From a virus, in IMG/VR virus record IMGVR_UViG_3300023084_000139, positions 1 to 23,013 of that record: DNA of 23,013 nt; one strand, written 5' to 3'. Below are positions 2,615 to 22,500 of this stretch, piece after piece. A program made the translations under genes and the position numbers. Under the pieces are notes generated by a model, which saw nothing but the letters and a program-made list of their open reading frames with translations, made no database searches and was not told the origin of the DNA. Position 1 is the stretch's first letter, and the number at the start of each line of letters is the position of its first letter.

Positions 2615-5600
2615 ATGCCATTAACACGTCTGGATAACCTTATCAGCTCTAAGACTGGTAAGTATCTTTATGTTTCTCCTGATGATTTCAATGCAACAGA
2701 TGCATTATCCAATAGAGGTAATTCACCTGTAACACCATTCAAAAGCATCCAGCGTGCTTTTCTAGAAATCGCAAGATATTCGTATCTACCTGGATTTGGC
2801 AACGATAGATTTGACCAGTTCAGCATCATGCTGATGCCTGGTATTCACTACATTGACAACCGTCCTGGTCTACTTGACACCAGTGGTATCGATGTATTTG
2901 GATTCGATCAAGGAACTAATGCTTGGACTGATGACAGCATCCTAGATCTTTCCAATCCTGATAACATCTACTGGAAGTTTAACAATACTGAGGGTGGTGC
3001 TATCATCCCTAGAGGTTCGTCCCTTGTCGGTTATGACCTCCGTAGAACCACTGTTCGTCCTCTCTACGTTCCTGATCCTGCAACAACGGAACGTGAGATT
3101 CCTCGCTCTGCCATCTTCAACGTAACTGGTGGTTGTTACTTCTGGCAGTTTACCATCAAGGATGGTCAAACTACATCTGAGTCTCCTCTGTACAATACTG
3201 CAGCAGGAACTGGTGAGGTTTACTATGATCCTACTGACTTCACCAAAAAGACAGCACCTAACTATTCTCACCACAAACTAACTGTATTTGAATATGCAGA
3301 TACAGAAGAACTAGGTATCTTCTACAGAAAGATTGCTAAAGCATTCTCTGCATATCAACCAACAATCGATGACCCAGGCGAATTCGATCTCAGAGTCCAA
3401 GAGAACAGAATTGTTGGTCCTCTATCTGACTCTAGAGTTATTGAGAGTCTAAAGATTACTGATAACACAACTGATTCTAGCATCCCTGCTTCTACTTCTG
3501 AGATTGAAGTAACAACCAAGGTAGACCACGGATACTTCCAAGGTCAGTTTGTTGCTATCGCTAACACTGAGATTGATGATGTACTGGAGGGTATCTTCCA
3601 GATTAAATCTATTGACCAGAATGATGCTCGTAAGTTTACTTATGAAGTGCCATTTGTTGCTACTGCGATTGGAACTAACATTACCTCAGAGAAGGTTGTT
3701 AGTGTAGATACTACTCCCGCACTAGGTCAGAACGCACAGACTCTTGCGGAAGTTGACTCTGTTGAGTCCGCATCTCCTTACGTTTTCAACGTATCTATCC
3801 GCTCCACATGGGGTATTTGCGGAATCTGGGCAAACGGTCTGAAAGCCACTGGATTCAAATCCATGGTTATCGCGCAGTACACGGGTGTTTCGCTCCAGAA
3901 AGACGACAGAGCATTCATTCGTTACGACGAGTACACCAATACTTGGAACCAAGCATCACTAACTGACGCATTTGCAACAGTTCCTTACCACACCAAGGGT
4001 GATTCCTACTGGAAGGATGAGTGGAGAAACTTCCACGTCCGCGCTTCGGAAGATGCATTCATCCAGAACGTTTCGATCTTCGCTGTTGGTTTCGCTGATC
4101 ACTTCCTGATGGAGAGTGGTGGTGACATGTCCATCACCAACTCTAACTCCAACTTCGGTAACACATCTCTACACGCTATTGGTTTCAAAGGATTCTCCTT
4201 TAACCAAGACAAGGGTGGTTACATTACTCACATCATTCCACCTAGAAAGGTAGAAGATACACAGGCAAACACTAAGAAGATTGCCTACTACACCATTGAT
4301 ATTCAAGGTACTCTACAGACTAGTGGTAACTATACCAAACTATTCTTAGGTAGTGATGAGATCTCTGATCCTAGAACCAGACCTGCTGCCACCATTGATG
4401 GTTACAGAATTGGTGCTAAGTCTGGTGATAAACTATATGTCAAACTGGATCCAGCACCTGGAACGGATAACCTGTTTGAAGCATCCCTAGAACCAACTGG
4501 TTTCGTCAAGTATGTTGCAAAGGGTTCTATCCTCAATCCATCTGGTGGTGTAATTAACAGTGTCTATGCTGATGCTGCTAACCTGATTGAGTCTAACCGT
4601 CGCTTCATGCAAGAAGAAGTCTTCGGTTATATCCTAGAGAAGTATCCTAGACTCCAGAACATTTCTTATGTCAACCCTGGTCTAAATCCTGCTGGCAACC
4701 GTTACTTCGACGCACGTAACCTAATCGTTGCTAACCGCCAAGAGATTGTTGATGCAGCATATGCATCGATGCTTCAGACTTTCCCCAACTATGATGGAAA
4801 CAATGGTAACACCTTTGGTGATAAGTGTAAGCGTGATATCGGTCTAATCGTTGACGCAGTTGCAGAAGACCTTAGAGATGGTGGCAACGCTAACATTATT
4901 GAGGCAACCAGAAGATATTTTGATGGTGCTGGTAATCCAATCAGCAATGGTTTGGTTGGTGAAGAAGATCCTGCAATCTTTGCATTCAATAGAGCAAGAG
5001 ATCTTTGCAAGAAAGCAATTGCTAACCTGTTGACTGTACAAGCAGATCTATATGATCCTGATGCTAACAGCGAACTAACAACATATGGTATTAATGCTGG
5101 TTACACTGGTTCTGCAGCAGAAGAAGCAGGACTAACAACCAATGGCGTAACCATTGATGTTTCTCAGAAGCAAGATCCTGCTGGCAGAAACAAGGATGCA
5201 CGTAACAGAATTGTCGCCAATAGAGATTTCATTCTCGACGCAGCACTGGCAGAGATCAGTGTATATCATCCTGACTTCTACATTCCTGGCGACTCCCAAA
5301 CTGATGATCAGTCCAGACTTGCTGATGCATTCCGTCTGATCCGCCGTAATAGCAAGGAGATTGGAGACAAGGCACTTGCTTCTATTGCACTCAATCACCC
5401 CGATTTCTATATCCCTGGTGATCAGCAGACTGATGGTACTTCTAGATATGCTGATGCATATCGTCTCATTCAGCAGAACAAAGATCAGATCGTTGATACT
5501 GCACTAGCACAGATTGCATACGAGCATCGTGATTTCTACTTCCCTCTTGACTCTCAGACTGATGAGCGTTCTAGATTTGCGGATGCATACTACTTAATTC

Positions 5601-8600
5601 AAGCAAATCGCCAGGAGATCATTGACACTGGTTATGCAAACATGCTTGCATTGTATCCAAACTATGATGGAAACAATGGTAACACTTTTGGTGATAAGTG
5701 TAAGCGTGACATGGGATTCTTGATCGACGCTGTATCGCTTGACCTCATGGTTGGTGGTAACAAGTATTCCCGTAAGTTTATCTCTGAATACTTTGATGCT
5801 ACTGGACAGAACTGGATCTCTGGTGGTCTACAGGGCGAGACAACTGAAAGTATTGAAGCATTCAACCAAGCACGTGATCTCATGCGTTCTGCGGTTGCTA
5901 ACCAACTCAGTATTGTTGATGGAAGTGTTACTGCTGGAACAGCTGAGTATGGTGTAGGAACTACAATTATTCCCAACACTAATTCTGCTGCATGTACTGA
6001 TGTTCAGTCCACAATTACTACTCTGGTTGACATCATCACCACACCTATTAGTAATGGCAACTTGAATTCTCTACCAGCAGAATCTTCTTATATCTCTGGA
6101 GTAGGTGAAAGTAAGTGTCGTAGAGACATTGGTTACTTTGTCGATGCAGTTGCACTTGACCTATTCATTAATGGTAACGAGTACACTTGGAAGTTCTGTG
6201 CAGAATACTTCACTAATGCAACCACACAAATTGCTAATGGTCTTGTAGGTGAGACTACAGAGAGCAGAGCTGCATTTGCTAAAGCTGCTGAGATGATGAA
6301 GAAGGCAGTAAGCAATCAACTATATGAAAAAGATCTAACCATCACTGCAGACAATGCACCTGGATCTGCATATGGTCAGGTAACTAAGAGTTTCACTCCA
6401 CATGGTGCAACTTATGATCCAAACACTGGTGCTACGGTTCTTAGCATTGCTAATCATGGTCTGTCTGTTGGCGACTATATCACCATTGCTACTGACTCGC
6501 TAACCTTTACTTGTGATTTGGATGGCGATGCTACTCAGCATACATATCCAAGAAATACTGACCCCGCTGCGGGTCAGTACCTAGAAATTACTGCTGCTAC
6601 CACTGATACAATCACTATTAATGTTGGTGATGGTGGTAGCAACACCAGTGTTCACACATTTGTAAGTGCTGCAACTGATGCAGTTACATTTGCTGGTAAC
6701 ACTGCAAACCAATTGATTGATGCTCAGACTGCACTATGTTCTGACGTTCAGTCTGCGATTGATACTCTCAACACTATTGTTCAGGATGTATTCACTGTTG
6801 GTAACCTCAACAGTATGCCACTTGAGATCAATAAGGGATCTGCTGGTCCTGGTGAAACTAAGTGCCGTAGAGACATTGGTTACTTTATCGATGCTGTCTC
6901 TGTTGACATGTATTGTGCTGGTAACAGGCACACCAAGGAATTCACGAGACAATACTTCACCAATGCTACTACACCACTAAGCAATGGTCTTGTAGGTGAA
7001 GAAGCAGAGAGCATCACTGCATTCTCTGCTGCTATCTCGGAGATGAGAAAGGCAGTATACAATGCTCTATACTACAAGGATCTGACTGTAACTGAAGGTG
7101 CTTCCGAGTATGGTGGTGCTGGTGGTAATGTCGATAGACAAGATGCTGCAGCATGTTCTGATGTTCAGAGCGCAATTCAAACACTGGGAGATTTGGTTAC
7201 CGATGCAATTGCTGCTGGTAACATTAATGGTGGAATCTGGAACCAACCAGACAATGAAGGTTCCTTCAAGACTGGCGAAAGCAAGTGCCGTAGAGACATT
7301 GGTCACGTTGTTGATGCTATCGCACAGGATCTCTGGTTTGGTGGTAACGAGTATACCATCGCAGCAACTAAAGAATACTTCGCACAGAATGCTCTCATCT
7401 CTAACGGTGTAGACAATGAAGTTGGACCTGCTATCACCGCATTCAAGCGTGCTGCAGATCTAATGAACCGTGCAGTAAACAACCAATACTATGATAGAGA
7501 TCTAACCATTACTCTTGATCAGGTTGGAGATCCTCCATTTGTATCAGACATTCATGCTGATGCATATAATCTTGTTCTTGACAATAAAGAGTTTATTGCT
7601 GAAGAAGCATATCAGCGTATGCTCTCTGCATATCCACTCTACACTCCTTCTGCTGGTAACACTAAGCAGGATTGCCTAGATGACGTTTATGACGTTCTAG
7701 AAGAGGTAATGTGGGATGTTAAGTTTGGAGGTAACTCTAAGACATATGATGCTGCTAAGGTTTATGTTACTAACATTTTCAATGGTGATGCAGTAGAAAC
7801 ATTCATCGATGCTGAGCGTGATGAAGCTGCTAAGGTCTTCACTGAAGTCAAGAACATTGCAATCCAAGTTCTAAGAAACGAAACGGTAACTGTTTCTGCT
7901 GGTAACACTCTAACTCAGACCAAGGATCTTACCATCGTTGATGACTGGGATATTGATGAGTTGCTACCTACTTGTGGTTCTGCTGCAGGTGCTGTTGATA
8001 CTCTACTTGGTATCATCATTCAGGCAATTGGAAATGATGGTGGCGTTGGTACGCTAACTGCAGAGAGAACAACTGGTGCTACTGCGGATCCTGCATATGA
8101 TACCGCAGTCAACATCACTGCTGCTACTGCAGAAACAATCACTATCAATGTAGGAACCTCTACTCACCTCTATCCACATACATTCTCCAGAGCAACTGCT
8201 GGTGCAGTAGTATCTGGTGGTAACTATCTACACAGATTTGTAAGTGCTGCTGCTGGTGCAGTCAACGTTGTTAATGGTCCTCAACTAACTCCAACCAACG
8301 CAACTTACAATGCAGTAACTGGTGACTTTGTGATGTACTTCGGTGCAGCACACGGTGTAACTACCAGCGATCAACTATCTCTTGACGACAACTCCTTCAC
8401 ATTCAAGTGTGACATGGACGACTTCACTGCCGACCATGTATATCCACGTCCTGGATCTGATTCCATCGTCGGACAGAATGTCAATCCAACTGCTGTAACT
8501 GACTACAGCATTACAATTAATGTTGGTGCATCTCCTCTAGTTGAATGGGATGTAACTGCTGCAACTTATGATCCTGCATCTGGTGATGTTGTAATCACTA

Positions 8601-11600
8601 TTGGTGCTCACAGTCTACCTGTTGGCACTAAGGTCAAGGTGAAGACTGAATCCATTGCCTTCAAGTGTGGTAAGGACAACTATAAGACTGAGCACGCATA
8701 TCCTCGTGCTGCAAGAGCATATCAACCTTCTGTATATACAGTAGGTAACTGCTCGGATGTTCTAGCAACAATCGATACTCTAACTGGTATCCTTTGTGAT
8801 GCACTTCTCGCTGGTAATCTAGACGATCTCCCACCACTATCGAATGGTCTCTGGGATTGTGCAAACGTTAGATCTTCTATTGAGAACCTATTTGATATCC
8901 TTACCGATGCAATCGGTACAGGTTCTCTCGATGGTCTACCTGTACTCAACAAAGGTGACTTCACAATCAATAACGAAGCATCGAAGTGCTTCCGTGACGT
9001 TTCCTACATCGTTGACGCTGTTGTCAATGACTTGAGACTTGGTGGTAACATCAACAGCATTCAGGCAGGTGAAGCATACTATGTTGGTAACAGCCTCACC
9101 TACATCGATGGTGAGAAGACTGAAACCCTAGATGCATGGGATTATGTCGGACAGTTGGCAACTGCTGCCATGAGAAACTTCGACTTCCTTGCATATAATT
9201 GCTCTACTACTGCTGGTTCTGACATCGTAGATGTTGGTGACACTCGTGGTATTGTAATTGGCATGTCCGTTGCTGAGTATGATGCAGCATCTTATAATTG
9301 GGCAGAGCAACAAGCTCTTGAAGGTCTACTTAACTTCTCTGATAATGGTACAATTACGCAAGTTACTTCTACCATTCCTGCAGGAGCTTACGTTAGAGAG
9401 ATTCTAAACGGTACTCAAATCAGACTAGGAACTATTGGTTCTAGACTAGAAGATGGTAGCCCAGTAAATGCTGTTCAGACCAACAATGGTAACATCAACC
9501 TACACTTCAGACTAGAGAAAGGTGCATGGGCAGACACTGATGTAAACACTGTCTTGGTTGGACCTGAAGATGGATGGCAGCAGGGTGGTGTAGAAGTCTT
9601 CCCAGATGTTATCGCTGATAGTCTAACATCTCAGAATTACAGAGAGTGTGAGGGAACCGCAGATGCAATCGAATCCCTAGTTGGTGTCATTACTACCATT
9701 ATTAATAGTGGTCTTGGCACAGTTGTTAGACAAGAGCAGACTGTAGACACAACTGTTCTTTCTAAGAGAGCAACTGTATTCACCATTGATACTGGTGGTG
9801 GTGCATCTAACCCACACAACTGGGAGACAGGTACACCTGTTAGACTGGTTCCACGTCCACGTTTCGATCCAGTTACAGGTAAGTATGTTGATGTTGACAA
9901 GCGTCTTGTCAGATTACCTAATGGTTTCGAGACAAACAGAACCTACTATGTAATCGCTCCTGGTAGATTCACTTCTCCTGAAAACTATGCTAACACTTCC
10001 TTCTGGAATAGTGAAGCAACTACAACACTGATGCTCGCAACTTCTCCTGAGAATGCAGCAGCAGGTACATACATCTATGCTTCTGAGACTGATAGCATCG
10101 ACAGAGATGTTGAGATTGACATCTATCAGTTTATTCTAGATGAGTCCTATGATCTACATGCATACACATCTTCTCTTGAGTCTTCTGATAGAATCAGAAC
10201 AGAAGTAGCACACGTCTTTGATATTCCTGTCGATGGTGTAACACCTCAGAAGGTATTCATCAGAGCAGCAGAAGGTGGTAACTTGCCACTCATCTCCCAG
10301 AGTTACATTAATGACCCTCTGGTCGCTGTAACTGATCCTCTCGATGGTAACTTTGGTAGAATCAATCCAAATGTTGAGTTCTTCGTTCGCTATCAGTCTC
10401 CTAAGATCATTTCGATTCACAAGACTGCAGCAGATGCAAGAGCAAATGTACAACCAATCTCGTTTGCTGCTGGACAAAGTGGTGTAACATTTGATGTCTT
10501 CGCTAACAAGCGTAGAACACCAATGAAATTTGACCCATCATTCACTGATGGATCTACTTCTACTGGTAAGTGGTACGTCAACTGTAGAGATGACTCTGCT
10601 CAACCACAGTCTGTCCTCAACGACAACATCTTCTGGAGAATCAGTCAGTCTGATTACTCTGACAGACAGAGATCCACAGACATGTGGTACGAGCGTCTGG
10701 AGGATAATAGAGACAAGGATGATAGAACATACAAACTACGTTATGTCATTCCTTCTTACTTGGAGAACGCAAGAGATCCTATCAATGGATTTGTTCTCAA
10801 GACAAGAACTGACGACACCCGTAAACTTGTACCTCAGAAGATTGTACTGAAGCCTGTGACTGGCACAGTATATGGTGCTCGCTTTGAGAACAGACAGAAC
10901 CCAGGTGAATTTATCGGTCAAACTGCATCACAACTTGCAGGATTTGATCAAGATTCTCTCTATGATCCATTCAGAAAAGAAGTTGGTGTTGAGTATCGTG
11001 AGTTTGCTAAGTTTGCATCTGGTGTTCAGGCAACTATTCAGTCTGCTCGTTACATCCCAGATGCTATCGATGAGACAATTGAGTATCTAGAACTCACGGT
11101 CTTTGACCATGCTATCGATACCAGAAACTTCCCTGGACTAAGAAACGAAGTTCTCACCACAGTTAAGATTACTGCTCCTCAGGGTGGTGCATTCGTAACT
11201 GATAAAGCAGATAATCAAGCAGGTGACACTAACTATGCTAGCTTTACTGGAAACACTTCTGGTAACTGCAATATCCATGCATACTACACTGTCAATGGTG
11301 AGCATTATCTCATCATCAAGGGTATCCGCAATGGCACTCTAGAGTACAGTGAGTTTGCTAACACCAGATTCTCTCAGACGCAAGGCAGCATCACTGTATT
11401 TGCTGACATGCTTGAGGATCAGGACATGGGCAAATCGCTACCTCTGAAGACTCATATCAGAAAAAATTTCCCAGAGTATTATTACAAGCAAAACGGCGCT
11501 AACGTTTATACCATCACCCCTGGTGATAGAATCACTGATAGTGCTGGTGTTGAATACTATGTTGATAGCGTCAAAGATGCAGGCATTATCGAAGATACAT

Positions 11601-14600
11601 TCTACATCTTCGGTTATGAAACCCTACAGAGACGTATCGCTGGTCAGCAAGATGGTATCTACTATCTAACTTGCCTACGTGGTAACGTTTCTCCATTCCC
11701 AACAGGTGCTGGAGTCAGCAATAACTTCCGTAGATTTAAGTTCTCTCAGCCAGTCAGTAAACTCTATCCTCTCAACTATAAGAACGATCCTCTCTGGTTC
11801 CAAAACAATGGTACATCTAATGAAGAGAAGAACTACTACGCAGGTCTAATCGATCCACCTTCTACATTCTCTGCTGCAGACAACTACGTTCACGGTCTAG
11901 TTACCGTCAACGACTTCAAGAACTCTGTAACAAGAGAAGGTATTGATGATCTACTCAAGCAGAGTGCATTCATCGAGAATTCCTATGAAGCAGGTAGCAA
12001 TCAAATCAGAGCACAAAGAGGTAACGCTACCGCTGGTTCTGAGGATCGCTTGATTCCTATCGCTGGTGACAGCACAGTTGTTGTTGATCAGCGTTACTAC
12101 GTTGAACTCCGTAGACCATCTATCGCACGTGCTGGTAACCACACGTTTGAATACCTTGGTTTCGGTCCTGGTAACTACTCCACAGGTCTCCCAGCGCGTC
12201 AGGAAGTCGTCCTAACTCCTGAAGAGGACTTCTATGCCCAAAGTAAGAAACAGGACGCTGGTATCGTCTTCTACACGGGTATCAACTCTCAGGGTGATCT
12301 CTATATCGGTAACAGAAGAATTAATGCTATTACTGGTGAAGAGACATTCATCGATGCTGCAGTTCTTGCAGATGATGGAGACGAGGATGATACCGTAGGC
12401 GGTCTCGTTACCACTTTCGATACACCTGTAACTTTCAACCAGAATATCACGGTTGTTGGTGGTGATGGACAACTAGTCAACAACTTCGAGTCTCCTGTAA
12501 CTATCTCTGTTCAGGATGATGACTTTACTCAACAGCGTGATGCTCTAATCATCCGTTCTAACGTATCTTCTGTCGATCCTGTAACTCAGTTGCAGCAAGA
12601 CGAGGGTCTAGACAGAACTGCATGGGCACCACCAACTGAGGGTGACATCAGACTCAGCAAGAACAGCATCAGATCTGCTATCTTCCAGTTCAATGCTAGA
12701 GGAAATGGTCAGAGTTACATGTTCCAGACGCACACCGTTGCTGGTGTAGCATCTAACGCAACTCCTAACCAGTCTCCACTAATTTCTGCTGGCGGAACAA
12801 GAATCGCAGCATCTCAATATATCACCTATGGTGGTGTACTACCTGCTCCTGGTGATGTTCTGTTCAAGGGCGAGGAAGTTGGTAAGAATGGTTCCATTGC
12901 ATGGATACTTGCAAACTACTTCCAGCAGATTGCAAACAACAGCATTGACAATATCGTCTTCGACGGTAGCAATGTTGTTAAACTTGAGTTCAGAGACTTC
13001 AATAGCGGTGTTGCACTTTCCAACTCTGACATTGGTATTACTTCTACCTCTCAGATTAGAGTCAGCAACTTCTACTATGATCCTAGACTGAACCTAACCT
13101 GGACAGTATATGCTACGAAGCCTGGTGATCCATTCGATCCTGCTGATAACTACTGCTACTTCCAAGTAATCGATCAGATTCCTCAGGATACTCAGGCATG
13201 GGAAGACATCATTGCAGGAACTGCACAAGGTGCTGACGCTCCTACCATCGAGTTCTCTAACTCTAACTTCAAGGAAGTTGGTGTTATTGGTGGTGAAGCA
13301 CTCAGAACTGAGACTGAGACCATTGGTGATTACAAACTGGGTGTCAACACTATTGCAAGATCTACTCACGATGCATATAGAAATGCATTCGTTGAGAACC
13401 TCAACACCGATCCTCGTGCAAACCTAGACGTTGTTGGTAATGCATACATCAGCGGTCGTAAGACTCCTGATTATCTCTCCCACACCAACTTCGCAGATCG
13501 TGATAAGAACAGAATCCCAGATGCACTGCTAGTTGGTGGTGACAGTTCTGCTGTTGCTGATTATGCAACTCTCCGTGTTTCTACTGAGACTGCAGCGATC
13601 ACTGAGTCTGGTAGAGGCAACAATGAAGGCAAGGTTGGTATCAATGCAACTGATGCTGAACTAGACAGAGCACTGGTTGTCAAGGGTGACTCCAGATTCT
13701 CTGAAGACGCAAGATTCGAGCGTGACATCGAAGTCAACGGTGATGGATCTGTTGCTGAGATCAGAACATCCGAGACGGTTGGTACATTCAACCTAATCAC
13801 GGATGATACATTCACTGGTACAATCAATCTTGGTAACAAGGTAGAGAACATTAACATCGGTAACACTACCGAAGAAGATCAGTTCATCAGAATTGGTCAG
13901 ACATCTCTACACAGTAACATCTTCCTAGGTGTAACTCCAGATGATCGTCCTTCTGACAATGCTCTAACCATCAGTAAGATTGAAATTGGTGGTGCATATA
14001 ACAATAACGAATCTCAGTCGTTCACCAGAATCAAAACTAAGTCCTTCAAGGTTGATGGTGACTTCCAACTAGGTTCGAGAAGAACAATTAATGATACTGT
14101 AACACTTTCTACAACTGCTGGTACAGTCAACTTCTTCTCTAACTCTGGTTCTGCATCGATCATCAACTTCGGTCTAAATGCATCTGAGATCAATATCGCT
14201 GGTCAGGGTGGTACAACTACCATTAATAACCAGTTAGAAGTTATTGCTTCTGCTACATTCAACGGTAACATCACACTCTGTGGTGGTGTTGCAGCGTTCT
14301 CCTTCACTGGTGGTCGTGGTAAACTAGGTTCTCCAATCACTGCACATGACGATGGTATCCTAAGCGATACTCTCTTCAATAAGAACATTGACATCCTCAA
14401 CGTTCTTGTCAAACTAACCACCGAAGAAGGATATAACGAGGTTGACACCGCAGGTAGTGGTAATTGGGGTGGTGCTGGATTCCAAGCAGCACGTGGAAGT
14501 ATTGGTGGCACACCTGTTGTTGAACCTCAGGATCTTCCTGCTCTAACTGGTGATGAGTATTATCTACCACTTCTCAACGCACCTAACAAACTGAATGGTG

Positions 14601-17017
14601 ATCCATACTTCGTTGAGAATGACTACATCATTATCAATAGCGCAGAGAGTGCTAGTGGACATCCTGAAATTGTTCAGGTTGTTGAACTAACCAGAACATC
14701 TGTTGCTCCATACTACATTAAGGTTCGTCGTCAACCACTCGGAACATACACTGCTGTTCTAACTAACCATCCTGACAGAACACCAATCTATAAGGTAAAT
14801 GTTCAGTTTGATGCTACTTGGACTGAGCAACCATTGAACAGCAATGTTCCTGGTTCTCAAGACAATGTATATCTTGCAGAATTTGGTGGTAGCCTAACCA
14901 ATAATGATTATGTAATCATCGATCGTGAAGATACAACCAGCGATGGAATCTTCGATCAGGGTGAGGTTATCAAGGTTCTTGCTCCTCTATCTCAGGAAGT
15001 TCAGAAGTTCAGAATCTCCAAGGATTGTAATGATGCTGACGGTGATGTATTTGTTGTAGATTCTACTACTGGTGATGTTACCATTGGTGGTGCAACAACA
15101 ATCAACAACACACTAACAGTCAAGGGTGGTTGTGGAACAATTCAGACAGTTCAATTCACTGCTGATTGTACCGCTGGTGAATTCAGATTAACTAATGTTG
15201 TTATTACAACTCCTGGTAAGTCACTCTCCGACATCAATATTGGTGATGTTGTTGATAACATCCTTAATGAGTCTTCAATCGAATTCCTCTATGATACTGA
15301 GGTAATTGCAATTGACACTAGCAACGCTGTTGTCGAACTCAGCAAAGCAGTTGTAGGTTCTACCTCTGCTAGCTTCACTGGCGAGTTTAGAAGAAACGAA
15401 AAAGTTCTCCTAACCAATGGTAATGAAGTTCCTACATTCAGAGTAGACACTTGCACTGGCACAACTCACATCGGCAACCATTACGGTAGAATTGAGGTTG
15501 AGTTTGCTCATCAGGGTCAACAGGGATCTATCACAAATAATGCTGCTCTAGTACCTAACTTTGATTCTGGTAACATTGCAAGAGCATACAGCTACTGGTT
15601 CGATCCTCAAATTGTTTCTGATGGTGGTCCTGACACTACAATTAGAGTTGGTGTTACTGGATCTAGCGGTCAAATTCAAGTTCCTGTACAGAGTCTTGGT
15701 GTTGGAACTGGTAAGTTTGCAGTTGATGATATCGTATTTGTTGGTGATGCAACGTCAGCATCAACAGGCATTGGCGATTTCATCATCGGTAAAGTTACTC
15801 AGGTTATCGAAGATGTAGCAAATCCAACTGTCGTGATTGCTGACGTTGGTGATAGTCTTGGAACCAATAATACATTCGTAATTGGTGACAGTGCATTTGC
15901 TGTTGGTAATGTAGTCAGAAGACTAGTCAAGCATCGTGAAGTTGCAAATGTCATTGATTTTGAAGAGAGAACAAGAATTAATGCTGGTGCATCTAGCACT
16001 TATCTCTCCCTCATCCTTGACAGAGGATACATTGTACAACAGAAACTAGACTACCTCAACTGGGTTGTACTTACAGACTCCCAGGGCAGATCTCTTGCCT
16101 GGACAGCAGTCAAGGGTAGAATGTTTGGTGTCGTTCATTCTGCAACAATGAATGAGCAGCGCACTGACGGCGGCATTGCATACAGAACTGGTGATCTAAA
16201 TGTCTCTGGTGGACTAACTCTAACAGGTGGCAACTTCACAATTTATGATTCCATCAATCAGACACAACTCTTTAGAGTTGTCAACGATGACGGTCACGCC
16301 GATCACCAAGGTCTGATCACTTGGGACTGTGGTGTTGTTGCTCGTGGTGACTTCTACCTGTTCACCGCACAGGATCCTGAGAACGTCATTACAAGCCCAG
16401 ACTCCACAACTCCATCCTTCTTCGTTGATAACCTTGGCAATGTAGGTGCTAAAACTACGCTTACCGTTACTGGTAATGCTAGTGCAACACCATCTCCAGT
16501 TGTTGAGCAACTATCTATCCAGAACCTAGGTATCAATGGTACTAAGAAGTTCACTGTCAATCAAGATAACTCTCTTGACTCCTTCGGTATTAATAACTTC
16601 TATTCGTCCAGTGGCGGTAGACATACTAGATATCTCTCTGCTGCATCTGCTGAAGAAGAACTGACCCTAACGCCAAACATTGTTTACTGTGTCAATGTTC
16701 AGGCATCTTCTACACTGATCCTAACTCTACCAACTTCTCCTGTAACTGGAGATACGGTTAAGATTGTTGAGGTTGGTGGTCAACTAAGTTACAACACATC
16801 TCTTGTTCTTAGAACTGCAGAATCCTCTGGAGTCAAGATTCAAGGAGATGCTACTGGTACACTACTTGGAGACAGAATTACTCCTTATCCATCTGGTGAA
16901 CTGGTTGTACAAACACCAAACGCAGCATTCACACTCGTATACCTAGGAGGAACCGATAACAATGGTCAGGTTGGAATTCCAACATCCGTACAGGGTTGGT
17001 GGCTAATGGAGGTCTGA
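2615..17017 (+). CDS. Giant virion structural protein (4800 aa), probable tail/baseplate-fibre component
   Basis: This single uninterrupted frame fills over 60% of the window. Residues 1-300 look like a pectate-lyase-type beta-helix: S-P-V-T-P-F-K-S-I-Q-R-A near residue 40, P-G-I-H-Y, an I-P-R-G-S-S-L-V-G-Y turn and an F-x-V-T-G-G-C-Y-F-W-Q-F-T-I-K-D-G rung. Residues about 295-348 hold an H-G-Y...G-x-F-x-I...F-T-Y-E module shared with the last gene of the window. Residues about 650-2370 are an array of helical repeats with regularly placed cysteines and inserted beta modules (see repeat entries). Residues 2370-3500 are beta-rich without clear repeats. Residues about 3700-4000 have N-I-N-I-G / I-N-L-G / I-N-F-G strands typical of trimeric fibre shafts, and about 4670-4800 form a fibre-type C-terminal domain (T-L-P-T-S-P-V-T-G-D-T-V-K-I-V; ending G-W-W-L-M-E-V). 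It follows the late promoter with only a weak ribosome site and ends in tandem in-frame TGA TAA. No T4 homologue is evident by eye; very large structural proteins of this kind occur in marine T4-like phages. No enzyme motif was seen. Confidence 0.88.
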   Translation: MPLTRLDNLISSKTGKYLYVSPDDFNATDALSNRGNSPVTPFKSIQRAFLEIARYSYLPGFGNDRFDQFSIMLMPGIHYIDNRPGLLDTSGIDVFGFDQGTNAWTDDSILDLSNPDNIYWKFNNTEGGAIIPRGSSLVGYDLRRTTVRPLYVPDPATTEREIPRSAIFNVTGGCYFWQFTIKDGQTTSESPLYNTAAGTGEVYYDPTDFTKKTAPNYSHHKLTVFEYADTEELGIFYRKIAKAFSAYQPTIDDPGEFDLRVQENRIVGPLSDSRVIESLKITDNTTDSSIPASTSEIEVTTKVDHGYFQGQFVAIANTEIDDVLEGIFQIKSIDQNDARKFTYEVPFVATAIGTNITSEKVVSVDTTPALGQNAQTLAEVDSVESASPYVFNVSIRSTWGICGIWANGLKATGFKSMVIAQYTGVSLQKDDRAFIRYDEYTNTWNQASLTDAFATVPYHTKGDSYWKDEWRNFHVRASEDAFIQNVSIFAVGFADHFLMESGGDMSITNSNSNFGNTSLHAIGFKGFSFNQDKGGYITHIIPPRKVEDTQANTKKIAYYTIDIQGTLQTSGNYTKLFLGSDEISDPRTRPAATIDGYRIGAKSGDKLYVKLDPAPGTDNLFEASLEPTGFVKYVAKGSILNPSGGVINSVYADAANLIESNRRFMQEEVFGYILEKYPRLQNISYVNPGLNPAGNRYFDARNLIVANRQEIVDAAYASMLQTFPNYDGNNGNTFGDKCKRDIGLIVDAVAEDLRDGGNANIIEATRRYFDGAGNPISNGLVGEEDPAIFAFNRARDLCKKAIANLLTVQADLYDPDANSELTTYGINAGYTGSAAEEAGLTTNGVTIDVSQKQDPAGRNKDARNRIVANRDFILDAALAEISVYHPDFYIPGDSQTDDQSRLADAFRLIRRNSKEIGDKALASIALNHPDFYIPGDQQTDGTSRYADAYRLIQQNKDQIVDTALAQIAYEHRDFYFPLDSQTDERSRFADAYYLIQANRQEIIDTGYANMLALYPNYDGNNGNTFGDKCKRDMGFLIDAVSLDLMVGGNKYSRKFISEYFDATGQNWISGGLQGETTESIEAFNQARDLMRSAVANQLSIVDGSVTAGTAEYGVGTTIIPNTNSAACTDVQSTITTLVDIITTPISNGNLNSLPAESSYISGVGESKCRRDIGYFVDAVALDLFINGNEYTWKFCAEYFTNATTQIANGLVGETTESRAAFAKAAEMMKKAVSNQLYEKDLTITADNAPGSAYGQVTKSFTPHGATYDPNTGATVLSIANHGLSVGDYITIATDSLTFTCDLDGDATQHTYPRNTDPAAGQYLEITAATTDTITINVGDGGSNTSVHTFVSAATDAVTFAGNTANQLIDAQTALCSDVQSAIDTLNTIVQDVFTVGNLNSMPLEINKGSAGPGETKCRRDIGYFIDAVSVDMYCAGNRHTKEFTRQYFTNATTPLSNGLVGEEAESITAFSAAISEMRKAVYNALYYKDLTVTEGASEYGGAGGNVDRQDAAACSDVQSAIQTLGDLVTDAIAAGNINGGIWNQPDNEGSFKTGESKCRRDIGHVVDAIAQDLWFGGNEYTIAATKEYFAQNALISNGVDNEVGPAITAFKRAADLMNRAVNNQYYDRDLTITLDQVGDPPFVSDIHADAYNLVLDNKEFIAEEAYQRMLSAYPLYTPSAGNTKQDCLDDVYDVLEEVMWDVKFGGNSKTYDAAKVYVTNIFNGDAVETFIDAERDEAAKVFTEVKNIAIQVLRNETVTVSAGNTLTQTKDLTIVDDWDIDELLPTCGSAAGAVDTLLGIIIQAIGNDGGVGTLTAERTTGATADPAYDTAVNITAATAETITINVGTSTHLYPHTFSRATAGAVVSGGNYLHRFVSAAAGAVNVVNGPQLTPTNATYNAVTGDFVMYFGAAHGVTTSDQLSLDDNSFTFKCDMDDFTADHVYPRPGSDSIVGQNVNPTAVTDYSITINVGASPLVEWDVTAATYDPASGDVVITIGAHSLPVGTKVKVKTESIAFKCGKDNYKTEHAYPRAARAYQPSVYTVGNCSDVLATIDTLTGILCDALLAGNLDDLPPLSNGLWDCANVRSSIENLFDILTDAIGTGSLDGLPVLNKGDFTINNEASKCFRDVSYIVDAVVNDLRLGGNINSIQAGEAYYVGNSLTYIDGEKTETLDAWDYVGQLATAAMRNFDFLAYNCSTTAGSDIVDVGDTRGIVIGMSVAEYDAASYNWAEQQALEGLLNFSDNGTITQVTSTIPAGAYVREILNGTQIRLGTIGSRLEDGSPVNAVQTNNGNINLHFRLEKGAWADTDVNTVLVGPEDGWQQGGVEVFPDVIADSLTSQNYRECEGTADAIESLVGVITTIINSGLGTVVRQEQTVDTTVLSKRATVFTIDTGGGASNPHNWETGTPVRLVPRPRFDPVTGKYVDVDKRLVRLPNGFETNRTYYVIAPGRFTSPENYANTSFWNSEATTTLMLATSPENAAAGTYIYASETDSIDRDVEIDIYQFILDESYDLHAYTSSLESSDRIRTEVAHVFDIPVDGVTPQKVFIRAAEGGNLPLISQSYINDPLVAVTDPLDGNFGRINPNVEFFVRYQSPKIISIHKTAADARANVQPISFAAGQSGVTFDVFANKRRTPMKFDPSFTDGSTSTGKWYVNCRDDSAQPQSVLNDNIFWRISQSDYSDRQRSTDMWYERLEDNRDKDDRTYKLRYVIPSYLENARDPINGFVLKTRTDDTRKLVPQKIVLKPVTGTVYGARFENRQNPGEFIGQTASQLAGFDQDSLYDPFRKEVGVEYREFAKFASGVQATIQSARYIPDAIDETIEYLELTVFDHAIDTRNFPGLRNEVLTTVKITAPQGGAFVTDKADNQAGDTNYASFTGNTSGNCNIHAYYTVNGEHYLIIKGIRNGTLEYSEFANTRFSQTQGSITVFADMLEDQDMGKSLPLKTHIRKNFPEYYYKQNGANVYTITPGDRITDSAGVEYYVDSVKDAGIIEDTFYIFGYETLQRRIAGQQDGIYYLTCLRGNVSPFPTGAGVSNNFRRFKFSQPVSKLYPLNYKNDPLWFQNNGTSNEEKNYYAGLIDPPSTFSAADNYVHGLVTVNDFKNSVTREGIDDLLKQSAFIENSYEAGSNQIRAQRGNATAGSEDRLIPIAGDSTVVVDQRYYVELRRPSIARAGNHTFEYLGFGPGNYSTGLPARQEVVLTPEEDFYAQSKKQDAGIVFYTGINSQGDLYIGNRRINAITGEETFIDAAVLADDGDEDDTVGGLVTTFDTPVTFNQNITVVGGDGQLVNNFESPVTISVQDDDFTQQRDALIIRSNVSSVDPVTQLQQDEGLDRTAWAPPTEGDIRLSKNSIRSAIFQFNARGNGQSYMFQTHTVAGVASNATPNQSPLISAGGTRIAASQYITYGGVLPAPGDVLFKGEEVGKNGSIAWILANYFQQIANNSIDNIVFDGSNVVKLEFRDFNSGVALSNSDIGITSTSQIRVSNFYYDPRLNLTWTVYATKPGDPFDPADNYCYFQVIDQIPQDTQAWEDIIAGTAQGADAPTIEFSNSNFKEVGVIGGEALRTETETIGDYKLGVNTIARSTHDAYRNAFVENLNTDPRANLDVVGNAYISGRKTPDYLSHTNFADRDKNRIPDALLVGGDSSAVADYATLRVSTETAAITESGRGNNEGKVGINATDAELDRALVVKGDSRFSEDARFERDIEVNGDGSVAEIRTSETVGTFNLITDDTFTGTINLGNKVENINIGNTTEEDQFIRIGQTSLHSNIFLGVTPDDRPSDNALTISKIEIGGAYNNNESQSFTRIKTKSFKVDGDFQLGSRRTINDTVTLSTTAGTVNFFSNSGSASIINFGLNASEINIAGQGGTTTINNQLEVIASATFNGNITLCGGVAAFSFTGGRGKLGSPITAHDDGILSDTLFNKNIDILNVLVKLTTEEGYNEVDTAGSGNWGGAGFQAARGSIGGTPVVEPQDLPALTGDEYYLPLLNAPNKLNGDPYFVENDYIIINSAESASGHPEIVQVVELTRTSVAPYYIKVRRQPLGTYTAVLTNHPDRTPIYKVNVQFDATWTEQPLNSNVPGSQDNVYLAEFGGSLTNNDYVIIDREDTTSDGIFDQGEVIKVLAPLSQEVQKFRISKDCNDADGDVFVVDSTTGDVTIGGATTINNTLTVKGGCGTIQTVQFTADCTAGEFRLTNVVITTPGKSLSDINIGDVVDNILNESSIEFLYDTEVIAIDTSNAVVELSKAVVGSTSASFTGEFRRNEKVLLTNGNEVPTFRVDTCTGTTHIGNHYGRIEVEFAHQGQQGSITNNAALVPNFDSGNIARAYSYWFDPQIVSDGGPDTTIRVGVTGSSGQIQVPVQSLGVGTGKFAVDDIVFVGDATSASTGIGDFIIGKVTQVIEDVANPTVVIADVGDSLGTNNTFVIGDSAFAVGNVVRRLVKHREVANVIDFEERTRINAGASSTYLSLILDRGYIVQQKLDYLNWVVLTDSQGRSLAWTAVKGRMFGVVHSATMNEQRTDGGIAYRTGDLNVSGGLTLTGGNFTIYDSINQTQLFRVVNDDGHADHQGLITWDCGVVARGDFYLFTAQDPENVITSPDSTTPSFFVDNLGNVGAKTTLTVTGNASATPSPVVEQLSIQNLGINGTKKFTVNQDNSLDSFGINNFYSSSGGRHTRYLSAASAEEELTLTPNIVYCVNVQASSTLILTLPTSPVTGDTVKIVEVGGQLSYNTSLVLRTAESSGVKIQGDATGTLLGDRITPYPSGELVVQTPNAAFTLVYLGGTDNNGQVGIPTSVQGWWLMEV
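3481..3670 (+). other. HGY/FTYE beta module in the giant protein
   Basis: Residues about 295-348 read T-T-K-V-D-H-G-Y-F-Q-G-Q-F-V-A-I-A, then D-V-L-E-G-I-F-Q-I and K-F-T-Y-E-V-P. A module with the same landmarks (N-H-G-Y...G-K-T-V-E-I-A-G...D-A-F-N-G-A-F-V-I...T-F-T-Y-E-A-P) lies at residues about 659-709 of the third collar protein (21571-21720). This suggests a small beta-sandwich building block reused between virion proteins of the same operon. Confidence 0.55.
4787..5709 (+). repeat. 50-bp direct repeat, copies at 4787-4836 and 5660-5709
   Basis: The two copies are identical except for one base (C at 4813, T at 5686) and lie 873 bp (291 codons) apart in the same frame. They encode N-Y-D-G-N-N-G-N-T-F-G-D-K-C-K-R-D, the entry into the first and second Cys modules. 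The flanking DNA is much more diverged, including synonymous sites, so this stretch looks recently copied or homogenised by recombination. Confidence 0.85.
5219..5605 (+). repeat. Three tandem 43-residue repeats in the giant protein
   Basis: Residues 869-911, 912-954 and 955-997 repeat with an exact 43-residue (129-bp) period: an N-x-x-x-I-x-D-x-A-L-A-x-I helix, [HR]-D-F-Y-[IF]-P-x-D-x-Q-T-D-x-x-S-R, and an A-D-A-[FY]-x-L-I helix. A partial fourth copy (N-R-Q-E-I-I-D-T-G-Y-A) leads into the second Cys module, and similar D-A-x-N-L-I-x-x-N-R helices precede module 1 (4567-4790) and module 6 (7555-7660). The array extends the linker between modules 1 and 2, explaining their wide spacing. Confidence 0.85.
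5993..9715 (+). repeat. Seven C-S-D-V-Q-S-type short helices in the giant protein
   Basis: A second Cys motif, C-[ST]-D-V-Q-S-[AT]-I-x-T-L-x-x-[IL]-[VI]-x-x-x-I-x-x-G-N-[LI]-N, recurs with Cys at residues 1127, 1375, 1514, 1787, 2046, 2082 and 2345; the copies at 1787 and 2345 are degenerate. Four copies stand 41-44 residues before a C-[KR]-R-D module (1127/1168, 1375/1417, 1514/1558, 2082/2125), so the basic unit is a two-cysteine helical pair. Confidence 0.8.
6389..8740 (+). repeat. Three A-T-Y-[DN]-x beta modules inserted in the helical array
   Basis: Modules starting at residues about 1265, 1896 and 1983 share A-T-Y-[DN]-x-x-[TS]-G-x-x-V-x-x-[IF]-x-x-H-x-[LV], a D/E-S-x-x-F-x-C core, x-x-[EDQ]-H-x-Y-P-R, and (copies 1 and 2) a following T-x-x-x-I-T-I-N-V-G strand. 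The T-I-T-I-N-V-G tail also occurs alone near 8140. They are beta-rich and lie between the helical Cys units. The first lengthens the distance between modules 3 and 4 from about 140 to 249 residues. Confidence 0.75.
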
Positions 17018-18271: not shown

Positions 18272-19596
18272 TGGCAGTATTCTACGGAAAAGAAAAATCA
18301 AAAGTCGGAACGAATACTGGTACAATTATTCATTGGGCAAGACAGTTACCTACAAATGATCCAGAGGATCAAACACGTAAGGAATTACTTCCCTCTGGAT
18401 ATTTGCGTTGTGATGGTACAGTTTATTCTGCAGAAATTTTTCCAGAACTTGCTACTATCTTAGGTACTGGTCAAAATTGTAGATTTAGAAAACCAACTCA
18501 AACATTACAAGATAATCAATTTCAAGTTCCAGACTATGGATCAAAGAAATTGAGAGCATCTTCTGGATCAAACTTAGGTGATGAGATTGATCTTCGTATT
18601 GAAGATGATGATGGAGAAGAAATTGTCAAATCTGGTGTAGGATTGGAAGTTCAAAGTAACATCGGTACTACATACGAGATTCAATATCAAGGTAATTTCT
18701 TTCTTCCATCGCAGCAAATTGTTATCACAGGTCAACCTGGATTTACAAGAGCAACAGGAAACTATACTGAAGTTACTGAGGTATTGCAAACAGCATTTTT
18801 ACCACATGCTCACTTCCACGATGGAACTAGAACAAGACAAGCGTCTTCATTAGGCAACGAATATAATAATATTGGTAGAAACTTTTATTCTCGCAAATCT
18901 ACACTTTGCATTCAACCTTGGTATTATAATACTTACCAACCTCTCTGTATGCTAGCAGCGGGTAGACTTAGAACTGCGAATATTACTCAAGCATCCGATC
19001 CATATGGTGGTGGTGGTGGATTATTTGGTAGATGTGTTAGATACTATTATGGTGCATGTTTTACTGGTTGTGACTTTTCTGGAGCAAGATATGAGTGCTT
19101 GATTCCAGATGGAACTAGTTGTGGATATCCACTGTGGAGTGGACAAACTTCTGGATGTGCTGGTGGTGGTGGTGGTCCTGAAACACTTAATTGTGGTACT
19201 GTTCAGTATACTGGAACATTATATTCTGTTTGCGAGTGTAATGGATTTGCTGGCGTTGACCCAGGTGATGCCAGACCACAAAGAGGTCCTCAACAATTAA
19301 CACCAAACTATTCTGACCCAACTGTTCCATGGGACTCTGTTAAAACTGATGATAGAGAGGGATTCTCTGCTATCTCAAACGTTACAACTGAAGTAGAAAA
19401 CTTCGGTGATGAAGCAATACACAGGCACTTCGTTAATTTCAGTGCAGATGAGCATACATATGTTGTGAACACAACACCAGTGTTCATTCCTGCTGCTCCC
19501 CTTGTCTCTACCATTCAAATTCAAGTCAATACAGAGAACAAGGCAGATCAATTTATTCAGCCTTACATCGTACAAGAGTTTCTAATTAAATTCTAA
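18271..19596 (+). CDS. Tail-collar-like protein 2 with cysteine-rich insert (441 aa)
   Basis: The start overlaps the previous stop by 1 nt (TGATG), with AAGGG 7 nt upstream as ribosome site. The N-terminus repeats the collar pattern: N-T-G-T-I-I-H-W, L-P-S-G-Y-L-R-C-D-G (Cys at 47), F-P-E-L-A-T-I-L-G, and F-Q-V-P-D-Y-G near residue 90. H179/H181/H183 (P-H-A-H-F-H) and H384/H386 (I-H-R-H-F) are HxH-type motifs. Residues 249-325 contain Gly runs and nine cysteines, absent from collar protein 1. The C-terminus ends Q-P-Y-I-V-Q-E-F-L-I-K-F, a likely beta strand. It is probably a virion tail protein, paralogous to its neighbours at least in the collar core. The exact place in the virion is unknown. 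Confidence 0.75.
   Translation: MAVFYGKEKSKVGTNTGTIIHWARQLPTNDPEDQTRKELLPSGYLRCDGTVYSAEIFPELATILGTGQNCRFRKPTQTLQDNQFQVPDYGSKKLRASSGSNLGDEIDLRIEDDDGEEIVKSGVGLEVQSNIGTTYEIQYQGNFFLPSQQIVITGQPGFTRATGNYTEVTEVLQTAFLPHAHFHDGTRTRQASSLGNEYNNIGRNFYSRKSTLCIQPWYYNTYQPLCMLAAGRLRTANITQASDPYGGGGGLFGRCVRYYYGACFTGCDFSGARYECLIPDGTSCGYPLWSGQTSGCAGGGGGPETLNCGTVQYTGTLYSVCECNGFAGVDPGDARPQRGPQQLTPNYSDPTVPWDSVKTDDREGFSAISNVTTEVENFGDEAIHRHFVNFSADEHTYVVNTTPVFIPAAPLVSTIQIQVNTENKADQFIQPYIVQEFLIKF
19027..19240 (+). other. Nine-cysteine segment within collar protein 2
   Basis: Between C255 and C323 (69 residues) there are nine cysteines, in the contexts G-R-C-V-R, G-A-C-F-T-G-C-D, Y-E-C-L, T-S-C-G, S-G-C-A, L-N-C-G and V-C-E-C-N, flanked and interrupted by runs of five glycines. 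The rest of the protein is far poorer in Cys. The spacing recalls small disulfide-stabilised or metal-binding domains, but it matches no family I can name. Confidence 0.7.
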
Positions 19597-22500
19597 TGAC
19601 AGCCTCTTATAGAAATAAATTCGGTAACTATAAGCAGGAGCATGAGGCAAACTATGCTCCATGTGGATCTATATTCCCTGTCTTAGTTGATAGTTTTTCT
19701 GGTAAACCCACTATCCAAGCAGGTGCTGGATCTGGATTAGAACCACCAGAACATGCATATCAAGATTACTTATACTGTGATGGATCTGTTCTCAATATTA
19801 GAGACTATCCTCAATTATATAATGTTCTGAGAAATTCATATGGTGGATCAACATCAGTAACAAAGTTGAGTCCATCTGTTGCTGGTGGTATAAAAAGATT
19901 TCTTAGAGGTGATGCTGTAGGATTGTCTGCAACAGATTGGTATGCTGTTATAAATCAAGATCCTAGTGTTCAGGCTACAGTAAAACTACCATATCCATAT
20001 GGAGTTAGTTTTAGATTTTTCGATAATACAGGCAATACACCACCTGGAAATGGACTAGGGAATCTAAATTCTAATGACTGGGAATATGATACATTTTATG
20101 GCACTGAAGCACCAACACAAGCAGAACTAACAGCAATTGCCCCAGGTGCCACGGAATTTGTATATAAATTGAAGTTTCCTGATGATGTAGACACTAGCAC
20201 TTTCAGTGGAACACAGTCATATTTCTTTGGTAACTCTGATCACCCTGCTACCATATTCAATAAAGGTTTCACAATCAGAGATTATCCATATAATGTTGGA
20301 ACATTTACTTTACCAGACTATAGAGATAGAATTGTAGTAGGATTTGGCGGAGTCGATGGTGATGGATCTCCAACGGTTGAGAATGCTCTAGTTAATGAGG
20401 TTGGACAACTTGGTGGTAGTTGGTATATCAGTAAGGATCAACTTCTCGATGGTGGTGTATTCTTTACTGTAGGTGATGTAAGAACGAGAGGATATTCGGA
20501 TATTGCTGCTGATGTTTTTACATATCTTACAGGTAGTGTAAGTTATAGAGTAGGACCACTATCTGATCATATCTTTACTAGACCAGCAGAGCACAACCAT
20601 AAGATTCTATCTTGTAAACCAGATGAACTAAATGACAATGAAGTTGGTGCTATCAACTGGGATGAGTTTGCTGTCATGTACAGTGAAACTAGAGCAAATA
20701 TTGCATTGTTTGAACCAGCAACATCTGGTGGTGTAGCATTAGGTCACTCTCATGGTCTGACAAGAGATAGATTGAATGATCCAAATGCTGCTACCTATGG
20801 TAACACTGCTGGCATTGGTGGACTAGATCCTAACACACCAGCAAACGTATTGTATGATGTTAGTGATAACATCATTGCTTCTACAGCAGTATATGATGAT
20901 ATTTCACTGGAACCACATGGACCTGGAACAGGTGAATGGGAAGGATTTGATAAACCAGGCATTGCACAGAGTAATAGATATCTAGCATTTGGATATAAAA
21001 ATACTGCTAGTATTAATGACCCTGGCTCTTTGAAAGTGACTAGAAGTGTAACATACACTATGGATTTCACTGGTTACACAGAGTTTTTCATCTATGCTAT
21101 TGCAGGAAATGATAGTAATGGTGGTGAGAGACCTAATAACCCAGAAGAGGGTTTGGTAGTAGAATTTTCAGATGGATCGGAAGTTGAAATTATTCCATCT
21201 GCTAGAAAATTTAATAATGACAATAACATTGAGAGCGGGTTTGAGCAGTATGATGCTGTTTATGCTTATTGGACAGCAAGCACTATCACTATTCCCACGG
21301 CACTACAGAACCAACCAAATCAAACTGTAAAAATTAAACAAATACTTAGATCATCTGACCCTGGGGATGGTGAGGGATCTGGTGGTGTAGAGCAAGGTTC
21401 TGGTGTTCCTGCTGGAAATAATAATGCTAACGATATGTTTGGCATTCAAGCAATTGGATTGCGTGGTGGTATTACTACTGATCCACCAGATCCAGATGGT
21501 GAATATCCAATCACAGGATCTACGTATTTCAATGTACTCAGCATTACATATGATTCTGCAAACAATTGGTGCTTAGTTACAACCAATGAGAATCATGGTT
21601 ACCAAGCAGGTAAGACAGTTGAAATTGCTGGTGCTATTCCTGATGCTTTCAACGGTGCATTTGTAATCCAAGATAATAATCAACTTAGTGGATCTACATT
21701 TACATATGAAGCACCAGCAGGTGTTCCTGCATCTGCATCTGGAAGTGCAATCACTGTTAGATTGGCTCCTGGATATTTTGAGGATGTTGTAACAACACCC
21801 GAACCAAGAATGTATGTTGTTGATGACAACACAGGTATTGGTGGTAAAACTGAGGTATTTGTTATTCCTGGCACTGGTGTTTCATTTGGTTTTGAAGAAC
21901 AGGTGGGAGAAGGTGTCATCAATACCGATCCAATCCCTGCAGAGACAGGTGAAGTCACACAACTACAAGTAACATTAGATGCTCCTGGTGGAGGTGGTGG
22001 TGGAACATTTTCTGATGGCGGTGATGCTGGATATGCATATGCATCTTTCCAATTAGACGGATCATTCTACACAATCTACGCATATGGTGGAGAAGGTGGA
22101 CAAGCAGGTGACAGTGGTGGTGCAGGTGGTGCTGGAGGATCATTCTTAATTCCTCAGGAACTTATTGACAATCCACTGTTTTCATATACTACAAATGCAG
22201 GATCTGACGGTGCTGCTGGAAGTGGAACATCACCTGGAAGTGGTGCTGGACCACAATTCCAAGGTGCTGCATCTACTAGATCTGGTGGTAATGGTGCATC
22301 AGAAGTATTCCAAACCACAACTGGTGACGCTGATTTTGTCTTACAGACATCTACAACATACACACCACCAGCAACATACCCAGGAGAAGCATCTAGAATC
22401 CACGAACTAAGAGTCGTTGGTGGAGGCGGCGGTGGCGGTAATGGTAACGCCAACTCTGGTTGTCAAGATGGTGGATATGTTGGTGGTTCTGGTCCTCAGG

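Follow-up and report, generated by a model that had tools for sequence, protein, structure and literature searches.

In phycobiliproteins the cysteine, arginine and aspartate of helix E hold the chromophore, and the proteins assemble into threefold rings. Domains related to them were identified here in a tail-fibre-type protein of 4800 amino acids (aa) encoded by IMG/VR virus record IMGVR_UViG_3300023084_000139, whose 23,013 bases, analysed at full length, are called the window below; the virus is one that infects marine cyanobacteria. Two points of background concern lyases of the CpeT/CpcT type, which act on phycobiliproteins, and phage genes of the bilin pathway. A section of a review (PMC10452541) states that CpcT serves the beta Cys153 position. 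A 2010 report (PMC3037559) described what phage pcyA and pebS do as a mystery and the role of phage cpeT as unresolved. Searches of open-licence papers, judged by title, opening of the abstract and selected passages, yielded no report of phycobiliprotein domains in virion proteins, nor any paper on PF00502 together with phage. The most likely explanation of the locus, and a highly probable one, is that tandem phycobiliprotein domains derived from the host antenna serve as structural modules in a cyanophage tail fibre. Such reuse of a light-harvesting fold as a repeated tail building block would be unexpected for phage and photosynthesis specialists alike.

Homology to phycobiliproteins

Profile searches and predicted folds together establish residues ~680-2200 of the 4800-aa protein as a tandem array homologous to cyanobacterial phycobiliproteins. 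PF00502 (Phycobilisome) was the sole Pfam family found for the protein at E<=1 (E 6e-14, best stretch 694-745), and the whole-protein score was 52.7 bits against a gathering cut-off of 22.2, which places the protein in the family. A first-pass annotation made from the sequence alone had known of no named family for the array; the match above the curated cut-off does not support that statement. It had also proposed a profile search with a repeat alignment, which showed the repeats to be real and assigned them to the known phycobiliprotein family rather than to a new repeat. A six-frame PF00502 search of the record gave three stretches, two over the cut-off (23.8 and 23.3 bits) and one below it (13.5 bits).

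One domain compared with PDB sequences gave 18 matches at E<=1, 17 of them phycobiliproteins, and a 12-row profile gave 55 matches (best E 9.1e-6), of which 52 were named phycobiliproteins. Two smURFP entries and 8u0f, a "bacterial fluorescent protein", made up the other three; we take them to share the phycobiliprotein fold. NCBIfam matches were C-phycocyanin alpha (E 2.5e-7) and C-phycoerythrin alpha (E 1.8e-5). Profile-profile comparison of 127 viral segments with 164 cyanobacterial phycobiliproteins reached a probability of 85.8 (E 5.4e-6); an earlier comparison with a narrow allophycocyanin set had reached 49.7 (E 1.7e-4). When 59 genomes of the cyanobacterial phylum were searched with the phage profile, 28 matches were obtained across 21 genomes, counted as frames rather than as named proteins, and every frame measured 163-192 aa. 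In the 12-row profile alignments the viral KCxRDIGY fell on the KCARDIGYY string of phycocyanin alpha with the two cysteines superposed. On this alignment the C-K/R-R-D-I-G motif represents phycobiliprotein helix E, its cysteine matching the bilin-attachment cysteine, and K-C-x-R-D-I-G comprises the attachment cysteine with its arginine and aspartate neighbours.

Predicted fold

Two AlphaFold models were built on alignments drawn from the window and viral loci. Model 1 (mb6c04d45a658) covered residues 648-850 with 101 alignment rows from the 140 representatives listed and had a mean pLDDT of 75.8; model 2 (mcc0b4b3cd275), a two-unit model, covered residues 1362-1660 with 41 rows and had a mean pLDDT of 71.8. 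The best 50 of 420 Foldseek matches (E<=10) for the Cys738 domain model were all phycobiliproteins or derived biliproteins, counting 8u0f, with a best match at E 3.9e-3 and probability 1.00. VIA-align, a re-examination of Foldseek's own candidates, returned only phycobiliproteins or derived biliproteins among the 50 matches listed (Z 13.1-11.8), mostly over 107-119 residues at ~2.5 Å, so that the globin-like phycobiliprotein fold is present in the predicted models. For the Cys1417 unit the top 28 VIA-align rows were phycobiliproteins or biliproteins (Z 10.2-6.2), while other chains scored at most 5.4.

Several points weigh against this reading. The best E value of one domain against PDB sequences was only 0.11, only 4 of the 12 profile members matched PF00502 alone at E<=0.01, and the NCBIfam scores lay far under the model cut-offs, with no single stretch passing. 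The confident sequence match comprises helices B to E only, with no clear match past the GG motif. Neither model has a mean pLDDT above 75.8, the single-domain Foldseek E value was no better than 3.9e-3, and for the two-unit model the first phycobiliprotein stood at rank 4 (E 2.0), its second unit being scarcely covered by the fold comparison. According to the VIA notes, helical models may reach Z ~13 through a common arrangement. The structural role of the domains, moreover, is read from their context. The phycobiliprotein homology is nonetheless secure enough to act on; the function of the domains is less so.

Organisation of the fibre protein

A viral-copy profile, built partly from the window's own copies, found seven full copies in the 4800-aa protein (E 5e-32 to 1e-50). 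A short profile of the helix that carries the upstream cysteine (C-S-D-V-Q-S type) found five copies (E 4e-10 to 4e-12) and a weak one (9e-3) near residue 2349, with no copy at residue 1787. The repeats thus lie far above chance, and the first description of a tail protein built of recurring helical units that keep their cysteines was borne out. The features are as follows.

2615-17017, + strand: tail-fibre-type giant protein of 4800 aa bearing the domains (open frame; PHROG matches)
4655-5050, + strand: phycobiliprotein-like domain, Cys738, residues 681-812 (PF00502 at 4691-4849, E 7.3e-7, over cut-off; fold model)
5258-5536, + strand: helix-B-like repeats without helix E, residues 882-974 (partial domain-profile matches, E 3e-4 and 1e-7)
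5516-5929, + strand: phycobiliprotein-like domain, Cys1029, residues 968-1105 (PF00502 at 5561-5794, E 5.1e-7, over cut-off; domain profile)
5942-6343, + strand: phycobiliprotein-like domain, Cys1168, residues 1110-1243 (domain profile E 2e-50)
5981-6064, + strand: upstream-Cys helix, Cys1127, perhaps serving the unit before it as helix H (short profile E 2e-10)
6380-6643, + strand: inserted module, residues 1256-1343 (PHROG 1276, "unknown function")
6686-7090, + strand: phycobiliprotein-like domain, Cys1417, residues 1358-1492 (domain profile; fold model)
6725-6808, + strand: upstream-Cys helix, Cys1375 (short profile E 4e-10)
7103-7510, + strand: phycobiliprotein-like domain, Cys1558, residues 1497-1632 (domain profile E 4e-46)
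7142-7225, + strand: upstream-Cys helix, Cys1514, candidate beta Cys153/158 position (fold end anchors; short profile)
7520-7900, + strand: phycobiliprotein-like domain, Cys1687, CxDD variant, residues 1636-1762 (domain profile E 6e-34; PF00502 at 7556-7699, E 7.9e-4, below cut-off)
8738-8821, + strand: upstream-Cys helix, Cys2046 (short profile E 2e-10)
8840-9190, + strand: phycobiliprotein-like domain, Cys2125, with upstream Cys2082, residues 2076-2192 (domain profile E 5e-32)
1110-1628, + strand: CpeT/CpcT-type phycobiliprotein lyase gene, 5' of the fibre gene (PF06206 E 1.2e-38; PHROG 488)

All 14 residues that the first-pass annotation had named as motif cysteines are cysteines in the protein, and its four pair spacings are 41 (1127-1168), 42 (1375-1417), 44 (1514-1558) and 43 (2082-2125); at three of these positions the match to the motif is poor (1687, CLDDVY; 1787, CGSAAG; 2345, CEGTAD). 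Regular expressions run over the open reading frames of the window and 154 viral loci, with overlapping contigs kept in, found 356 upstream-Cys motifs, and 263 of them stand 41-44 residues before the next helix-E motif. Positions 48-172 of model 2 align to beta-subunit 74-177 in VIA-align, and in this fold alignment the CSDVQ helix of the next unit stands where the preceding one would have its helix H, so that the 41-44 spacing probably joins a last helix to the next helix E. Going by this one model, the upstream cysteine would begin a helix that completes the unit before it, packing there as the final helix; with such packing, the constant spacing would be a distance between units. The alignment ends pair model position 172 with 172 in phycocyanin beta and with 177 in phycoerythrin-type beta. 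Since the fold alignment gives ranges only, we infer the single positions: Cys1417 (model position 56) would fall at beta position 82 if the alignment is gapless, and Cys1514 at phycocyanin beta 153 or phycoerythrin beta 158 if the last helix is gapless.

The helix-B-like repeats at 5258-5536 are ~43 aa each (ADA-RLI--N---I-D-AL) and directly precede the Cys1029 domain; S-RSM4 and S-PM2 have partial repeats of a similar kind. Another repeat, tFxC-x-x-D...T-x-HxYPR, is present three times outside the phycobiliprotein-like units (residues 1300, 1932 and 2018; ~6512-8705). It has a conserved cysteine and histidine, a possible metal site, and its first copy lies within the PHROG 1276 match (1256-1343).

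Best stretches of the 4800-aa protein matched PHROG 529, "tail fiber protein" (residues 1-612), and PHROG 4527, "short tail fiber protein" (residues 2344-4800); its named PHROG matches were all tail or virion proteins and the rest were nameless. The record contains four tRNA genes and the 4800-aa frame (2615-17017, +) followed by three collar-domain proteins, the last cut by the record end, while genes for CpeT and for a 2OG-Fe(II) oxygenase lie 5' of the fibre gene. The collar-domain protein at 19596-23012 is very rich in glycine towards its end, which continues beyond the record, and GC content rises to 0.50 there. The best named match for the Cys738 domain among phage records was Synechococcus phage S-RSM4 (tblastn, 77% identity), whose gene order is near-identical to that of the window: tRNA-Leu, a small gene, cepT, tRNAs, a conserved phage protein, the fibre and tail proteins. 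The S-RSM4 homologue of the 4800-aa protein is a 13.4-kb gene annotated "putative short tail fibre".

Conservation and distribution

A total of 406 distinct copies were collected from 80 viral loci and the window, with related contigs kept, and the 254 copies of at least 100 aa were used. The chromophore-site residues were retained at 95% (C), 87% (R) and 98% (D), ranking 7, 11 and 4 among 105 well-filled columns; they are thus well kept, although not uniquely so. In the window CxRD was found in six of the seven full copies and CxDD in one (2 partial rows excluded), so that the helix-E signature is present. Nine panel phages had the cysteine in 40 of 45 full copies and CxRD in 26 of 45 (9 partial copies excluded), with departures commonest in Syn9, P-HM2, P-RSM4, P-SSM7 and P-SSM4.

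The domain has a wide reach. One domain matched 402 of 50,697 phage records by tblastn, named Synechococcus (323), Cyanophage (60), Prochlorococcus (18) and Marine (1), the single "Marine virus" record being a Kyanoviridae single-cell virus. A profile search of 22 phages gave 9 positives, all T4-like cyanophages, and 13 negatives, comprising pelagiphage HTVC008M, T4, KVP40, phiM12 and Cr30 outside the cyanophages, and P-SSM2, S-SM2, S-CRM01, S-TIM5, Ma-LMM01, P-SSP7, Syn5 and PSS2 within them. The domain is therefore common in T4-like cyanophages but not universal. Predicted viral structures gave 14 matches at E<=0.001, of which 9 were named Synechococcus phage proteins and 5 were nameless. 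The P-HM2 gp7 protein, a baseplate wedge by annotation, also bears a phycobiliprotein-like domain. Domains in gp7 baseplate-wedge giants or other frames of several thousand aa were seen in P-HM2, P-HM1, Syn9, P-SSM4 and other genomes; there the arginine is often replaced by aspartate (CxDD). No phycobiliprotein domain was named in the annotations examined, which covered 60 of the 402 records, P-HM2 and S-RSM4 among others.

The most probable history is that an ancestor of these phages acquired the domain from the antenna of its host and multiplied it, so that it became a helical unit from which fibres and baseplates are built. Judged from this context, the domain would work mainly as a spacer and assembly module, and the threefold rings of phycobiliproteins would suit a trimeric fibre.

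CpeT and possible bilin loading

As a further step, compatible with the homology, the helix-E cysteines and perhaps the upstream, Cys153-like cysteines might be loaded with bilin during infection, the latter by phage CpeT, which would give a pigmented tail. We consider this a serious possibility, though less likely than not by a clear margin. The evidence in its favour begins with retention of C, R and D in most fibre-type copies and of the cysteine in the panel copies counted above. The CpeT gene lies directly 5' of a domain-bearing fibre gene in the window, S-RSM4, S-PM2, Syn1 and four contigs (G082, G083, G086 and G094). In Syn1 it is a full-length match at 19950-20462 (E 1.5e-35), though the 2010 table lists none for this phage. 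The 2010 statements on phage pcyA, pebS and cpeT also count in its favour. On the other hand, columns outside the motif are conserved too, many copies in Syn9, P-HM2, P-RSM4 and P-SSM7 have lost the arginine, and P-SSM4 has three copies, none with the cysteine. Seven panel phages are CpeT-positive, and four of them (P-HM2, Syn9, P-SSM4 and P-RSM4) have CpeT at least 30 kb from the domains, while ACG-2014f has CxRD copies but no CpeT match. The region after helix E, which forms the pocket in phycobiliproteins as generally described, is predicted with one short helix.

Co-occurrence was followed in the 16 T4-like cyanophages of PMC3037559, where the domain was found in 13 and was absent from P-SSM2, S-SM2 and S-SSM7. 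The table of that report lists CpeT-like genes for all 16 except P-SSM2, Syn1, S-SM2 and S-SSM7, a concordance of 15/16, or 16/16 with Syn1 scored by its Pfam match; the last six genomes were searched with the published CpeT column already known and no expectation stated beforehand. A single-protein CpeT search matched 4 of 10 genomes and found none in Syn19 and S-ShM2, so their status was taken from the published table. The three phages without domain and CpeT favour a link, but they group as a single clade in a gp8 tree, itself long-branched, so their joint absence counts as one event; the same table gives pebS in P-SSM2 and S-SSM7, both domain-less. Among 27 contigs chosen for CpeT (picked from 80), 11 have the domain and the 16 without it are fragments of at most 26.2 kb. 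Seven contigs chosen by gp8 (83-189 kb) have the domain in 7/7 and CpeT in 3/7, a choice that is not neutral because the gp8 query came from a domain-bearing phage. As proof of function, co-occurrence with CpeT is weakened by the one-clade negatives, two of which have pebS.

The upstream cysteine may be the counterpart of beta Cys153, the class of site served by CpeT-type lyases. Of the evidence gathered, the fold end anchors alone favour this, placing Cys1514 at phycocyanin beta 153 or phycoerythrin beta 158 if the last helix is gapless; a local alignment put the upstream cysteine on Cys153 (E 0.0018, probability 14.7) at a loose confidence setting only. At a stricter setting the local alignment stopped after helix E and did not reach Cys153, the register was lost once cysteines were masked, and short-profile searches gave no significant match in either direction.

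Slightly more doubtful still is the broader proposal of pigmented virions, in which both fibre and baseplate domains would receive chromophores from phage CpeT and, in some phages, phage-made bilins. If true, the fibre would be a viral counterpart of the phycobilisome rod, possibly a light sensor, quencher or stabiliser, and its domains the missing acceptor of the phage lyase. The domains could in this way explain why cyanophages carry a bilin lyase, and as a concrete candidate acceptor they make an old question of role testable on one purified virion sample.

Cysteine pairs and other explanations

The first-pass annotation had read each pair as a compact unit with its cysteines facing each other, a disulfide or metal site within every 41-44 residues. 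The constant spacing is in keeping with this, as is the finding, in fixed alignment columns of the 254 copies, that the upstream cysteine never occurs without the helix-E cysteine (119/119). The same columns, however, have both cysteines in 119 copies, the helix-E cysteine alone in 122, neither in 13 and the upstream cysteine alone in 0. The facing pair is thus not supported, and as the basis of the repeat it is rejected on the 122 of 241 helix-E cysteines that stand unpaired. The alignment of the helix-E cysteine with the phycobiliprotein chromophore cysteine also weighs against it, and the fold alignment gives the upstream helix to the preceding unit. A disulfide or metal pair inside each unit is accordingly very improbable.

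Least probable of all, to the point of being barely credible, is a convergent globin-like helical bundle without common descent. Helical bundles do reach middling fold scores by chance and the single-domain sequence matches are weak, but Pfam, NCBIfam and the PDB profile search all rank phycobiliproteins first, with KCxRDIGY in register.

Comparison with known systems

The lyase gene upstream of the fibre is a member of the CpeT/CpcT T-type bilin lyases; it encodes an enzyme and not the domain, and its link to the fibre is a putative one. The 4800-aa protein resembles the giants of cyanophage tail fibres and baseplates, matching PHROG 4527, 529, 5342, 701 and 18802. Its domains resemble the alpha and beta subunits of the PF00502 family (phycocyanin, phycoerythrin and allophycocyanin) in the helix-E cysteine, arginine and aspartate, in profile match and in predicted fold. 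They differ from these subunits in standing in tandem inside a 4800-aa tail protein, in having ~20% identity in fold alignments and in a diverged region past helix E. A phycobilisome antenna subunit is a separate protein of ~160-180 aa, whereas these domains lie inside a 4800-aa frame and do not belong to that class.

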